Source of the DNA: Microbacterium sp. SLBN-154
Lineage (GTDB): Bacteria > Actinomycetota > Actinomycetes > Actinomycetales > Microbacteriaceae
Length of the DNA: 64,000 nt
Assembly (NCBI RefSeq): GCF_006715565.1
Contig: NZ_VFNL01000001.1
Location: forward strand, 1,860,001-1,924,000
Direction of reading: 5' to 3'
The notes under the pieces were generated by a model. The model searched no databases. It saw only the letters and a program-made list of their open reading frames with translations, and was not told the origin of the DNA. Numbering within the stretch: the stretch's first letter is position 1; every line of letters starts with the position of its first letter. Positions 41,023 to 45,446 of the stretch are shown piece by piece. The translations under genes were made by a program, and so were the position numbers.

Positions 41023-41127
41023 CCCGATACCGGCACCGGACGTTCACCTGCTCGTCGACCGACCGACCCCCAGGGGAGTGCTCACCGTTCACCTGCGCGC
41101 TCGACGCTGGACGCTCTGGGAGGTGGC

Positions 41128-42063
41128 ATGAACCGAGACGCCGTGCTGGCGTGGGTGGAGTCACCCCTGCAACTGATCGGCGCCGCCGAGTGGGCCGCCG
41201 CACATCGCATCACCGTCCCGGTCGCGGGGCGCCTGACGCCGCAGATGTCCGAGACGGCCGACCTCCTCCTCGCGCGCGGAGCGCGGTTCGGTGAGATGGA
41301 GCCCTACCTCGGTATCCCGTGGAAGCTGCTCGCGCAGCATCCGCACTGGCTCGTCGGCGACGGATTCTCCGGACAGTTCCGTCTCGCCGCCGCCGTCCTG
41401 CGTCCCCGCACCCTCACGTTCCTCGACGACGGCGCCATCGCACTGCCCTTCGCCGACACCCTCCTCCAACGCCGCCCCTATGCCCGCCCTCACGTGACCG
41501 AGAAGGGCCTGACCTCTCTGGTCGCGCCGTTCACCGCCGAGACGATCGCCCGCCGCGCGCGCTCCCGTGCCGCCCGGTTGTTCACGGCCTTCGACCTCGG
41601 CCCGGATCGCGAAGCCGCGCTCGCCGATCGGGGCTTCGCGATCGAGCGGCACCGATTCGCCTGGACGCGCGCCACCGCTCCCTCGCCGGTCGATCTCGGC
41701 ACCCGCGTGATCCTCGGAAGCGCCCGCCCGGTCGACGGACGGATGACACGTGACGCCTACCTCACATGGCTCGCCGAGGTGACCGAGGCCGCGCCGACCG
41801 GCGCCGAACCTGCGACCTACCTCCCGCACCGGCGCGAGACCGCCGAACAGCTCGACGCCGTCCGCCGCGTTCCCGGTGTCGCGGTCGCCGCGGCATCCGT
41901 CCCCGTCGAACTGATCCTCGCCGGCGCGACCCGACCGCTGCAGCTGCACACCCTTCCCTCGACGACGTCGACCACTCTTCCGCTCATCCTCGCCGGCACC
42001 GGCTCGACCATCAACGGCGAACCGGTGCCGACCGGCCAGGCGCGGGCGGGGGCCGAACGATGA
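41128..42063 (+). CDS. Sialyltransferase-like glycosyltransferase (polysialyltransferase-type fold)
   Basis: This 311-residue protein opens DAVLAWVESPLQLIGAAEWAA. The ESPLQL motif (residues 11-16) is a hallmark of bacterial alpha-2,8-polysialyltransferase and LOS-sialyltransferase-like proteins. TFLDDGAIAL (about residues 98-107) matches the conserved -DDG- of that group. The C-terminal THLP-like TYLPHRRETAEQLD and the HTLPSTTSTTLPLILAGTGSTI end (an S-T-x-P motif used for CMP binding in related enzymes) support the call. A GGGAGG ribosome-binding site precedes the ATG. It is coupled to the CMP-sugar synthetase gene, consistent with a transferase using CMP-nonulosonate. Confidence 0.75.
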   Translation: MNRDAVLAWVESPLQLIGAAEWAAAHRITVPVAGRLTPQMSETADLLLARGARFGEMEPYLGIPWKLLAQHPHWLVGDGFSGQFRLAAAVLRPRTLTFLDDGAIALPFADTLLQRRPYARPHVTEKGLTSLVAPFTAETIARRARSRAARLFTAFDLGPDREAALADRGFAIERHRFAWTRATAPSPVDLGTRVILGSARPVDGRMTRDAYLTWLAEVTEAAPTGAEPATYLPHRRETAEQLDAVRRVPGVAVAAASVPVELILAGATRPLQLHTLPSTTSTTLPLILAGTGSTINGEPVPTGQARAGAER

Positions 42064-43259
42064 GCGACGTCGTCGCGATCATCCCCGCCCGGGGCGGGTC
42101 GAAGGGTGTTCCCCGCAAGAATCTGCGTCGCGTCGGCGGCATCCCGCTCATCGGACGCGCGATCCAGGCAGCCCGGCGCTGCGATCTCATCGACCGCGTC
42201 TGCGTCTCGACCGACGACGACGAGATCGCCGCCGTCGCGGAAGAGTGGGGAGCCGAGGTCATCCGGCGCCCCGCCGACCTCTCGGGCGACACCGCGAGCT
42301 CCGAGTCGGCGATCCTCCACGCCCTCGACGACCTCGAGGCGCGCGACGTCAACGTCGGCGTCGTGGCGTTCCTGCAGGCCACCTCGCCGTTCATCGACAG
42401 CGAAGCCCTCGCCGGCGCCATCCGCCTGGTGCAGCAGCGCCGCCGCGACAGCGTGTTCTCGGCGATCGAGACGTACGGCTTCCTCTGGCGCAAAGGCACC
42501 GGCGACTGCGCCGAGGCGATCAACCACCGCGCCGAGCACCGTCCGCGCCGGCAGGACCGCGAACCGCACTACCTCGAGACGGGCGCGTTCTACGTCATGC
42601 GAGCCCGGGGGTTCCGCACGGTCCGGCACCGCTTCTTCGGCAGCATCGGGATCGCCGCGGTGCCCGAGCGCACCGCGATCGAGATCGACTCCTTCGCCGA
42701 GCTCGAGCTCGCACGCGCCCTCGCTCCTCTCATCGACGCACCTGAACCCCTCGATGTCGATGCGGTCGTCACCGACTTCGACGGCGTGCACACCGACGAC
42801 ACCGTCACCGTCACCGAGTCCGGTGTGGAGGCGGTGCGCGTCAGCCGCTCCGACGGCATGGGCGTCGCGCGCCTGCGCGCCGCGCAGATCCCCGTTCTCA
42901 TCCTCTCGACCGAAGAGAACCCGGTCGTCAGCGCCCGGGGGCGGAAACTCCGCGTCGAGGTCGTCCAGGGCGTCGGCGACAAGGCCGGGGCGCTCCGCGG
43001 CTGGGCCGATGCCGCACGCATCCCGCTGTCGCGGATCGCCTACCTCGGCAACGACGTCAACGACGTGCCGGCGATGGACATCGTGGGCTGGCCCGTCGCC
43101 GTCGGTGACGCCGACCCCGTCGTCCTGAGCGCCGCGCGCGTCGTCCTCGACCGACACGGCGGCGACGGCGCCGTGCGCGAGCTCGCCGAGCGTGTGCTCC
43201 GCGCCCGCCGCGGCCCGACATCCCTTCCCTACCTCCAGGAGAACAGGACCACCCCATGA
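42060..43259 (+). CDS. Acylneuraminate cytidylyltransferase fused to a HAD (KdsC-like) phosphatase
   Basis: This 399-residue bifunctional protein has residues 1-225 as a CMP-nonulosonate synthetase. They include VVAIIPARGGSKGVPRKNLRRVGGIPLIGRAI, STDDDEIAAVAEEWGAEVIRRPADLSGDTASSESAILHAL, LQATSPFIDSEAL and the late IEIDSFAELELARAL. Residues about 232-395 form a HAD phosphatase like KdsC: VVTDFDGVHTDD (D239 nucleophile, D241), ILSTEENPVVSARGRKL and IAYLGNDVNDVPAMDIVGWPVAVGDA. The phosphatase probably dephosphorylates a nonulosonate 9-phosphate before CMP activation. ATGA overlaps link it to the genes on both sides. Confidence 0.9.
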   Translation: MSDVVAIIPARGGSKGVPRKNLRRVGGIPLIGRAIQAARRCDLIDRVCVSTDDDEIAAVAEEWGAEVIRRPADLSGDTASSESAILHALDDLEARDVNVGVVAFLQATSPFIDSEALAGAIRLVQQRRRDSVFSAIETYGFLWRKGTGDCAEAINHRAEHRPRRQDREPHYLETGAFYVMRARGFRTVRHRFFGSIGIAAVPERTAIEIDSFAELELARALAPLIDAPEPLDVDAVVTDFDGVHTDDTVTVTESGVEAVRVSRSDGMGVARLRAAQIPVLILSTEENPVVSARGRKLRVEVVQGVGDKAGALRGWADAARIPLSRIAYLGNDVNDVPAMDIVGWPVAVGDADPVVLSAARVVLDRHGGDGAVRELAERVLRARRGPTSLPYLQENRTTP

Positions 43260-44128
43260 CCGTCACCATCGGCTCCCGCGTCATCGGAGGCGGCCACCCC
43301 GCCTACGTCATCGGCGAGATCGGACTGAACCATAACGGCGATGTCGAGATCGCCAAACGTCTCATCGACGTCGCCGCCGACGCGGGCGTCGACGCCGTGA
43401 AGTTCCAGAAGCGCACGCCCGAGATCTCGACCCCGGAGCACATGCGCGACATCCCGCGCGAGACGCCGTGGGGAACGATGAGCTACCTCGACTACCGTCG
43501 CCGTGTCGAGTTCGATCGCGATCAGTACATCGAGATCTCCGACCACGCCATCCTGCGAGGACTGGAGTGGTTCGCCTCGCCATGGGATGTGCCGAGCGTG
43601 GCGTTCCTGGAAGACCTGGGCGTCGGTGCGCACAAGGTCGCCTCCGCGTGCCTGACCGACCGCGCGCTGCTGAGCGCCCTCTGCGACACCGGCAAGCCGG
43701 TCATCCTCTCCACCGGCATGTCGACGATGGCGCAGATCAGCGCGGCCGTCGACGTTCTCGGCACCGATGACCTCGTGCTGCTGCACGCCACCTCCACCTA
43801 CCCGATGGAGCCCGAGGAGGCCAACCTGCGCATGATCCCCGCGCTGCGCGACCGCTTCCCCGGAGTGCCCGTGGGGTACTCCGGCCACGAACGCGGCCTC
43901 CAGGTCTCGCTCGCCGCGGTCGCTCTGGGCGCGGTCGCCGTCGAACGCCACATCACGCTCGATCGCACGATGTGGGGCTCCGACCATGCCGCCTCCCTCG
44001 AACCCGCCGGCCTGCAGCACCTCGTGCGCGACATCCGGATTATCGAGGCAGCTCTGGGAGACGGCGTCAAGCGCGTGTACGACAGTGAGCGAGGCCCCCT
44101 GGCCAAGCTCCGCCGCGTCCCGACGTGA
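43256..44128 (+). CDS. N-acetylneuraminate synthase family protein (NeuB-like), SAF domain absent
   Basis: This 290-residue TIM-barrel enzyme condenses PEP with a hexose or hexosamine substrate to give a nine-carbon sugar. Conserved motifs are VIGEIGLNHNGDVEIAKRLIDVAADAGVDAVKFQKRTPE, FASPWDVPSVAFLEDLGVGAHKVASA and KPVILSTGMSTMAQISAAVDVL. The metal histidines are H211 in YSGHERG and H232 in ERHITLDRTMWGSDHAASLEP. Typical NeuB proteins reach about 340-350 residues with a C-terminal SAF domain. This one stops after the barrel. It is coupled to the synthetase/phosphatase gene by an ATGA overlap. Confidence 0.9.
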   Translation: MTVTIGSRVIGGGHPAYVIGEIGLNHNGDVEIAKRLIDVAADAGVDAVKFQKRTPEISTPEHMRDIPRETPWGTMSYLDYRRRVEFDRDQYIEISDHAILRGLEWFASPWDVPSVAFLEDLGVGAHKVASACLTDRALLSALCDTGKPVILSTGMSTMAQISAAVDVLGTDDLVLLHATSTYPMEPEEANLRMIPALRDRFPGVPVGYSGHERGLQVSLAAVALGAVAVERHITLDRTMWGSDHAASLEPAGLQHLVRDIRIIEAALGDGVKRVYDSERGPLAKLRRVPT

Positions 44129-44141
44129 CGGGTTCTCCCTC

Positions 44142-45446
44142 GTGACAGGCGCGGCCGCCGGCATACTGCCGCCGCGGAGGATCCGGGTCGTCGGTATCGC
44201 CGACACCGACTCGTACGTGAAGTGGGCGGCGGCGCTTGTGGGAAGCGCTCCGGCCACCTGGGACCGCTCGATGCGGATCCTCGATACGCCGCTGGCGGTA
44301 TCGGACGACCAGCTGCGCGCGGCTTTGACCACGAGCGGCCTGTCCGTCGACGCCGTCGCGCGGCTGACGCTCGCGCAGCTGGAGGAGAGCGTCGCCGACG
44401 ATCCGCCGGATGTGGTGATCATCGGCGCGCGCGGCCCGTTGGCCCGCGTTCTCGTGCGTCTGTTCGCCACCCTTCCGGGGCGACCGGTCGTGGTGACGGG
44501 GCTTCCCGGCATCTCCGTCCCGGCCACCAGGAAAGCTCTGTTCTACCGGCAGGGAGCCGATCTCTTCGTCGTGCACTCCCGGCGCGAGCGGACGGAGTTC
44601 GCAGCGCTGTCGGCGACCACCGGTCTGCCCCACCGCTTCGCCCTGGCCACCCTGCCCTTCGCTGCCGCGGCCGCGCGGGCGGGCGGTCAGGGGCGTGCCC
44701 CCGAGGCGACCGACATCGTCTTCGCCGCCCAGGCCATCGTGCCGAGTGACCGGGAAGATCGCGTGAGGTTGGCCGGGATGCTCCGGAGCCTCGCATCGGC
44801 GGACAGCTCACGGCGCGTCGTGGTCAAGCTTCGCGCCGCAGCGGGGGAGCACCAGACCCACCTCGAGCGCGACGCGTTTCCCGAGCTCCTGCGCTCCCTC
44901 GGTGAGTCGCCGGAGAACCTCGTCCTGTCGACGGCGCCGATGCAGGCGGCCCTCGATCAAGCCGCCGGACTGGTCACGGTCAGCTCGACCGCGGCGATCG
45001 AGGCCATCGCCCGCGGCATCCCGGTTCTGGCGCTCGATACATTCGGCGTCTCGCCCGCGCTCATCAACGTGGTCTTCGAGGGCAGCGGCCTCCTCGGGGG
45101 CGAGGACGACCTGCTCGCGGGTCGATTCCGGCTCCCGGCGGCGTCGTGGTTGCGGGAGAACTACCTGCACGACCCGGCAGAGGATGACTGGATCCCGGCC
45201 GTCGAGCGGATGGTCGGGTTCCGGCGACAGGGGCTGCTGGCTCACCCCGCGCTCCCCACGGGACGCGGAGGGCGCCTGCGTCTGGCCTGGGAGCGGAAGT
45301 CCGTGTTCGGGGAGATGGACCGTTCACCGGCCGGGCGATGGGCGCTCGCGGTCGGGGTGCCCGCGCGAACCGTCGTGCGGACGGCGCGGCGCGTCCGCAC
45401 CCGGCTTCAGGTGTCGCGTTCGGCCGGGCCGATGTCTTCGCGGTGA
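44142..45446 (+). CDS. DUF6716 putative glycosyltransferase
   Basis: This 434-residue protein resembles GT-B enzymes annotated as DUF6716. The N-terminal half has IRVVGIADTDSYVKWAAALVG and PPDVVIIGARGPLARVLVRLFATLPGRPVVVTGLPGISVPATRKALFYRQGADLFVVHSRRE. The C-terminal half has IVFAAQAIVPSDREDRVRLAGML, VVVKLRAAAGEHQTHLE and the donor-site-like GLVTVSSTAAIEAIARGIPVLALDTFGVSPALINVVFEGSGLLGG. The start is GTG, 13 bp after neuB. The 3' end overlaps the antisense MetS-like gene by 40 bp. Presence in the nonulosonate locus suggests it extends or modifies the same glycan. Confidence 0.82.
   Translation: MTGAAAGILPPRRIRVVGIADTDSYVKWAAALVGSAPATWDRSMRILDTPLAVSDDQLRAALTTSGLSVDAVARLTLAQLEESVADDPPDVVIIGARGPLARVLVRLFATLPGRPVVVTGLPGISVPATRKALFYRQGADLFVVHSRRERTEFAALSATTGLPHRFALATLPFAAAAARAGGQGRAPEATDIVFAAQAIVPSDREDRVRLAGMLRSLASADSSRRVVVKLRAAAGEHQTHLERDAFPELLRSLGESPENLVLSTAPMQAALDQAAGLVTVSSTAAIEAIARGIPVLALDTFGVSPALINVVFEGSGLLGGEDDLLAGRFRLPAASWLRENYLHDPAEDDWIPAVERMVGFRRQGLLAHPALPTGRGGRLRLAWERKSVFGEMDRSPAGRWALAVGVPARTVVRTARRVRTRLQVSRSAGPMSSR

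Follow-up and report, generated by a model that had tools for sequence, protein, structure and literature searches.

A compact Microbacterium operon predicted to make and transfer CMP-Kdn, orthologous to the core of a Streptomyces teichulosonic-acid cluster

Four densely arranged open reading frames (ORFs) on the forward strand of Microbacterium sp. SLBN-154 (Microbacteriaceae), lying in a 64,000-nucleotide stretch of its complete 3.57-Mb genome (hereafter the window), raise the question of which nonulosonic acid they make and where that sugar is placed. Our analysis indicates that the operon is probably a compact actinobacterial module that makes CMP-Kdn, the cytidine monophosphate (CMP)-activated form of 2-keto-3-deoxynononic acid (Kdn), and transfers Kdn, with predicted enzyme roles and with orthology to core genes of the teichulosonic-acid cluster of Streptomyces. 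The original prediction for this locus, that CMP-Kdn or a similar deaminated nonulosonate is made from central metabolism and attached to a surface glycan, is thereby supported. Five lines of evidence carry this interpretation, namely the Streptomyces orthology, the lack of NeuC in the genome, the contrast in linkage between NeuC and the two types of NeuB, the constant presence of mannose-6-phosphate isomerase, and the residues of the phosphatase. Kdn-containing wall polymers of actinomycetes are already known chemically; in the literature searched, no assay was found of how the CMP-Kdn for them is made.

The genes lie where they were originally placed, as confirmed by the ORFs and by Pfam. 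The first encodes a sialyltransferase-like ESPLQL protein (here GT1; 41128-42063), and the second a fusion (42060-43259) in which Pfam detects a CTP_transf_3 domain and then a HAD match. The third encodes a NeuB-type synthase (43256-44128) and the fourth a DUF6716 protein (44142-45446) that starts with GTG. ATGA overlaps join GT1 to NeuA (42060-42063) and HAD to NeuB (43256-43259), and a gap of 13 bases (44129-44141) separates NeuB from DUF6716. The same four-gene set was found again across Actinobacteria, and the arrangement is therefore not due to chance.

The closest known system, which was absent from the original prediction, is a Streptomyces cluster that publications already associate with teichulosonic acid, and Ostash 2014 is reportedly the source cited for this cluster (SCO4873-SCO4882). 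Excerpts of PMC13011467 (see also PMC2267785) cite SCO4873-4882 of Streptomyces coelicolor as the PhoP-controlled teichulosonic-acid cluster, and excerpts of PMC11481543 and PMC7831098 describe the polymer as Kdn with galactose. Among the named loci, which were the best 80 of 586 candidates and are biased to close relatives, those of Streptomyces (among L101-L123) carried a polysialyltransferase gene and a family-2 glycosyltransferase gene (GT2) on the strand opposite to DUF6716, NeuA-HAD, NeuB and GT1, an arrangement that fits SCO4877-4882. Their DUF6716, NeuA-HAD, NeuB and GT1 are orthologous to the genes that stand together in the window. In the Pho-regulon table of Planobispora rosea, as excerpted from PMC8269224, the sialic acid synthase corresponds to SCO4880, the family-2 transferase to SCO4878, and hypothetical proteins to SCO4877, 4879 and 4882. 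Five genes of the P. rosea locus L085, from another strain, fit this table: the fusion gene and a group of four adjacent genes (GT2, the polysialyltransferase, DUF6716 and GT1), whose adjacency is what the locus tags require. Based on gene order and the published tables, GT1 is most likely SCO4882, DUF6716 SCO4879, NeuA-HAD SCO4880 and NeuB SCO4881.

The condensing enzyme was considered next to its relatives. Canonical NeuB and PseI synthases end in a C-terminal SAF domain. The window NeuB (PF03102, 270 bits) has only 290 residues and lacks this domain, as judged by its length and by where the domain match ends; its closest relatives are found in Microbacterium sp. AK009 (97% identity), M. kunmingense and M. 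invictum (both 96%). In 40 NeuB loci fetched by two genome searches, all 26 copies that are at least 50% identical measured 282-312 residues, and the remaining 14 all measured 337-362. In a tree of these loci, with long branches outside the clade, the 26 formed one side of a branch with a support of 100/99. On sequence grounds, the window NeuB is a separate kind of NeuB.

Among 249 genomes of the family, the SAF-less clade accounted for 70 copies in 69 genomes, two of the 70 being partial (G130 and G176). This count used 104 of 108 NeuB matches, after exclusion of the second pieces of split matches (G067, G111, G204) and one weak fragment (G021). A DUF6716 gene was located within 5 kb of NeuB for 67 of the 70 clade copies versus none of the 34 other NeuB places, and DUF6716 is the constant partner of the SAF-less NeuB. 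Close to the Nesterenkonia cluster, the opposite strand carries a second, distant NeuB match (33%; L119:17004-17822).

The two types of NeuB also differ in their relation to NeuC, the UDP-N-acetylglucosamine (UDP-GlcNAc) 2-epimerase of sialic-acid synthesis. The window genome has a single NeuB and no NeuC match anywhere. NeuC above the cut-off occurred in seven of the 249 family genomes, in each case adjoining the other NeuB type, and no NeuC was found within 10 kb of any of the 70 clade copies, a linkage that would have counted against the original prediction. In the one genome with both systems (G057), each NeuB type kept its own partner. Sub-threshold epimerase matches entered in the count numbered 43, including those found in clade genomes.

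Which precursor is available can be judged from the enzymes that supply it. Mannose-6-phosphate isomerase was present in 69/69 clade genomes, while NanE above the cut-off was found in 11/69, showing no enrichment over genomes without the clade (25/180). Judged by these two enzymes, one leading to mannose 6-phosphate and the other to N-acetylmannosamine (ManNAc) 6-phosphate, mannose 6-phosphate is therefore the precursor that all clade genomes can make. The original statement that amino-sugar enzymes are lacking nearby holds locally, but elsewhere the genome encodes a NanE above the cut-off at 2052970-2053554 (G000:C1, L002). Because a GH38 alpha-mannosidase gene comes next, in an apparent glycan-degradation operon, this NanE is probably catabolic.

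An animal-like route to N-acetylneuraminic acid (Neu5Ac) has to be weighed here, in which NanE would provide ManNAc 6-phosphate, NeuB would form Neu5Ac-9-phosphate, the HAD half would dephosphorylate it, and NeuA would activate Neu5Ac. The NanE of the window genome speaks for such a route, as does the human synthase, which according to excerpts of PMC6200933 accepts both mannose 6-phosphate and ManNAc 6-phosphate. Against it stand the lack of NanE enrichment in clade genomes, the degradative context of the gene, and the position of the orthologues in the Streptomyces Kdn-polymer cluster, and we regard the Neu5Ac route as unlikely.

The phosphatase provides a further indication of the sugar. 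The NeuA domain (42060-42734; CTP_transf_3, 103.6 bits) resembles the CMP-sialic acid synthetases 9t4z and 1qwj. For the HAD domain (42735-43256), the Kdn-9-phosphate phosphatase model NF058599 ranked first in NCBIfam (94.6 bits, cut-off 180), followed by KdsC models (86.1 and 76.4 bits), all below their cut-offs. The catalytic residues, i.e., both Asp of motif I (D239, D241), the Ser of motif II (S283), the Lys of motif III (K308) and both Asp of motif IV (D332, D335), were invariant in all 69 HAD-bearing loci, and so were E285 and K296. The latter two correspond in the alignment to E56 and K67 of the Bacteroides Kdn-9-phosphate phosphatase BT1713, which we take to set its specificity. At these positions KdsC 1j8d and KdsC-like 3n1u, the only two KdsC-type chains aligned, carry R/D and A/Q, and the aligned entry 4hgq does not share E56 with BT1713. 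Judged by its residues, the HAD half looks like a working Kdn-9-phosphate phosphatase. Synthesis of Kdo, which a KdsC-like domain might suggest, was dropped since Kdo synthesis uses KdsA as its condensing enzyme and the enzyme here is of NeuB type.

In 12 named loci (L073, L074, L077, L080, L082, L085, L086, L088, L091, L092, L097 and L098), NeuA, HAD and NeuB share a single stop-free frame. These loci belong to Herbidospora, Acrocarpospora, Nonomuraea, Microtetraspora, Planobispora and Microbispora (Streptosporangiaceae), plus Streptosporangium. The Planobispora chain (L085) has 686 residues, and Pfam detects all three domains in it. Two loci of Nocardiopsidaceae type from the same taxonomic order (L100, L102) are unfused, and L078 is truncated. 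A chain whose three activities lead from hexose 6-phosphate to CMP-nonulosonate argues that no further enzyme is needed between them. No description of a NeuA-HAD-NeuB single chain was found in the literature searched; it may be described elsewhere.

The two outer genes would account for the transfer of the sugar. GT1 has no Pfam match and its profile search against solved structures gave none; its AlphaFold model (pLDDT, the predicted local distance difference test score, 92.5) is nearest to the bacterial polysialyltransferase 5wc6/5wcn and shows the GT-B fold of bacterial sialyltransferases, whose families are GT38, GT52 and GT80. GT1 is thus a probable CMP-nonulosonate transferase of sialyltransferase type. 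DUF6716 (PF20471, 427 bits; model pLDDT 92.8) also has a GT-B fold and is a probable transferase of the nonulosonate or of a partner sugar. Its profile search against solved structures returned only weak matches (best E 0.12), no kinship with GT1 was detectable by profile, a viral structure search added mostly generic glycosyltransferases, and no mention of the family was found in the literature searched.

The DUF6716 model resembles GT-B enzymes and UDP-GlcNAc 2-epimerases, and epimerases ranked first in the structure search. It could on that account be a disguised NeuC-type epimerase, with the locus making Neu5Ac from UDP-GlcNAc. The residues led us to reject this candidate. At the epimerase positions R9, D94, E116, E130 and H207, which are presumably catalytic, R9 and H207 were replaced in all 32 DUF6716 rows, D94 was Asp in none, and an acidic residue occurred at E116 in none and at E130 in four; E116 itself is Glu in only 8 of 14 epimerase rows. 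We consider a hidden epimerase highly improbable. Three loci (L087, L093, L102) had two DUF6716 matches each.

The transferase complement varies among the loci. In nine Microbacterium loci (L045, L048, L049, L051, L053, L056, L058, L062, L064), GT1 is replaced by GT2 and a PF07388 polysialyltransferase-type gene, neither of which was found in the window neighbourhood. The six Curtobacterium loci hold, among the queried genes, only NeuA, NeuB and DUF6716, with no GT1. In a Demequina locus an ABC-2 transporter pair lies immediately upstream of GT1, which fits polymer export.

The region upstream of the operon suggests how it may be regulated. PHO boxes of Streptomyces consist of 11-nt repeats whose core is GTTCACC, according to excerpts of PMC6988585 and PMC4415409. 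Upstream of GT1, on the same strand, we observed the PHO-box-like unit GTTCACCTGC at 41042-41051 and again at 41087-41096, 45 bp downstream. The identical 10-mer occurs in a box before the pstS-like (PBP_like_2) gene of the same genome, which has two such units upstream, 11 nt apart (L126:1501-1518). An exact GTTCACC on the sense strand preceded the first gene at 11 of 13 GT1-led operon heads, the window included, and at 8 of 9 GT2-led heads examined over 300 bp (19/22 together), with none on the antisense strand; L068 and L060 were among the GT1-led misses. Random 260-bp windows contained it in 3% of cases. As related sequences at operon heads are not independent, these counts are given without a probability.

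With one mismatch allowed, units were spaced 22 bp apart in L061, L067, L070 and L071, and 44-45 bp apart in the window, L044, L046, L050 and L052; the second unit of the 45-bp pair reads GTTCACG in L044, L046 and L050. In Streptomyces, GTTCAYY was found on the GT2 strand in 17 of 18 GT2/DUF6716 intergenic regions. The GKTCAYY unit was repeated at a strict spacing of 11 or 22 bp at 11 sites in the 1.56 Mb of the 80 loci versus none in one mononucleotide shuffle. Four of these sites were assigned automatically to the 700 bp preceding one of the five query genes (L053, L061, L064, L081), four others lay 47 bp from GT2 match starts (L112, L120, L121, L123), and three were elsewhere.

From these results a pathway can be proposed. 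The SAF-less NeuB would condense mannose 6-phosphate with phosphoenolpyruvate to Kdn-9-phosphate, the HAD half would strip the 9-phosphate, and the NeuA half would form CMP-Kdn, as their families and residues suggest. GT1, whose fold is that of a sialyltransferase, and probably DUF6716 too, would then put Kdn from CMP-Kdn, the presumed donor, onto a phosphate-free acidic surface glycan as presumed acceptor. The box-like sites point to PhoP as the probable activator of the operon under phosphate scarcity.

Several observations weigh against this interpretation. The correspondence with SCO genes was drawn from gene order and published tables instead of S. coelicolor sequence; the window locus contains no polymer exporter or ligase; and the NanE of the window genome could supply ManNAc 6-phosphate. 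The strict 11/22-bp repeat is absent from the window, whose two boxes are 45 bp apart. GTTCACC was found at just 3 of 14 NeuA-led heads (L055, L069, L087; 1/6 in Curtobacterium) and at none of the 12 triple-fusion heads, so that regulation by PhoP is less well supported for operons headed by neither GT1 nor GT2. The PHO-box case therefore appears fair for the window operon and mixed for the module as a whole.

A further objection is that NeuA occurs without HAD in eight loci (L055, L057, L059, L063, L065, L066, L068, L076), i.e., six of Curtobacterium and two of other lineages, and that none of these eight genomes has a full-length KdsC-like HAD match elsewhere; three gave a weak partial match, and both control genomes were positive. 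The NeuB of these loci is still 73-78% identical. This pattern might be expected if the HAD half were merely structural and the pathway used unphosphorylated sugars, and a structural C-terminal module has a precedent in the vertebrate CMP-sialic acid synthetase (CMAS), going by the title of Oschlies 2009 in the references of PMC13214540. Six catalytic and two specificity residues invariant in every HAD-bearing locus argue otherwise, and the simplest reading of the losses is a redundant phosphatase, as argued in excerpts of PMC6200933 for the P. parvum Kdn pathway and of PMC13214540 for human NANP. A purely structural HAD half is thus improbable.

A broader proposal can be put forward tentatively, its parts taken jointly. 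The module would be an Actinobacteria-wide, largely Pho-regulated route from mannose 6-phosphate to CMP-Kdn, in which a phosphate-free acidic sugar replaces phosphate-rich wall polymers; the Streptosporangiaceae would possess a one-chain CMP-Kdn synthase; and DUF6716 would be a new family of CMP-nonulosonate transferases and the module's sole constant transferase. Phosphate saving through wall remodelling may extend past Streptomyces. The window operon offers a minimal, testable set, in which two proteins, or a single one in Streptosporangiaceae, account for three activities, and a one-chain synthase, if real, would be a handy tool for glycan synthesis. The SAF-less NeuB together with DUF6716 also provides a marker with which sequence alone can tell presumptive Kdn makers from NeuC-dependent producers of sialic acid. 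Polymer synthesis is not suggested by the five flanking genes that were scanned, whose products are a 5'-3' exonuclease, an SNF-family transporter, an NAD-binding protein and two small proteins.

Comparison with known systems places the operon further. In vertebrate CMAS, NeuA is likewise followed by a KdsC-like module, and 3ewi matches the window HAD half. The window HAD retains its catalytic residues, whereas the vertebrate module is described, in a cited title, as a tetramerisation interface. In the Serratia marcescens KL1/KL2 capsule locus, according to excerpts of PMC9000132, neuA-neuB heads the capsule region, Kdn is made, and sialic acid requires neuB; the NeuB there bears an isomerase/epimerase domain, and some Neu5Ac is also made (about 1:20). 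The Kdn pathway of Bacteroides thetaiotaomicron, with BT1713 and the Kdn-9-phosphate synthase BT1714, comprises the same three chemical steps that are expected in the window, and BT1713 has the catalytic residues and E56/K67 in common with the window HAD. It differs in that the actinobacterial phosphatase is part of a fusion with NeuA, in some loci with NeuB as well, and that the synthase is of the SAF-less clade (BT1714 itself was not compared). The Streptomyces cluster shares most with the window: orthologous DUF6716, NeuA-HAD, NeuB and GT1, in an order there that fits SCO4879-4882. That cluster depends on PhoP, and the window operon has PHO-box-like sites. The window operon differs in lacking GT2 and the PF07388 gene and in having GT1 first and DUF6716 last, and from these sequence comparisons it appears as a trimmed orthologue of the Streptomyces cluster with another gene order.

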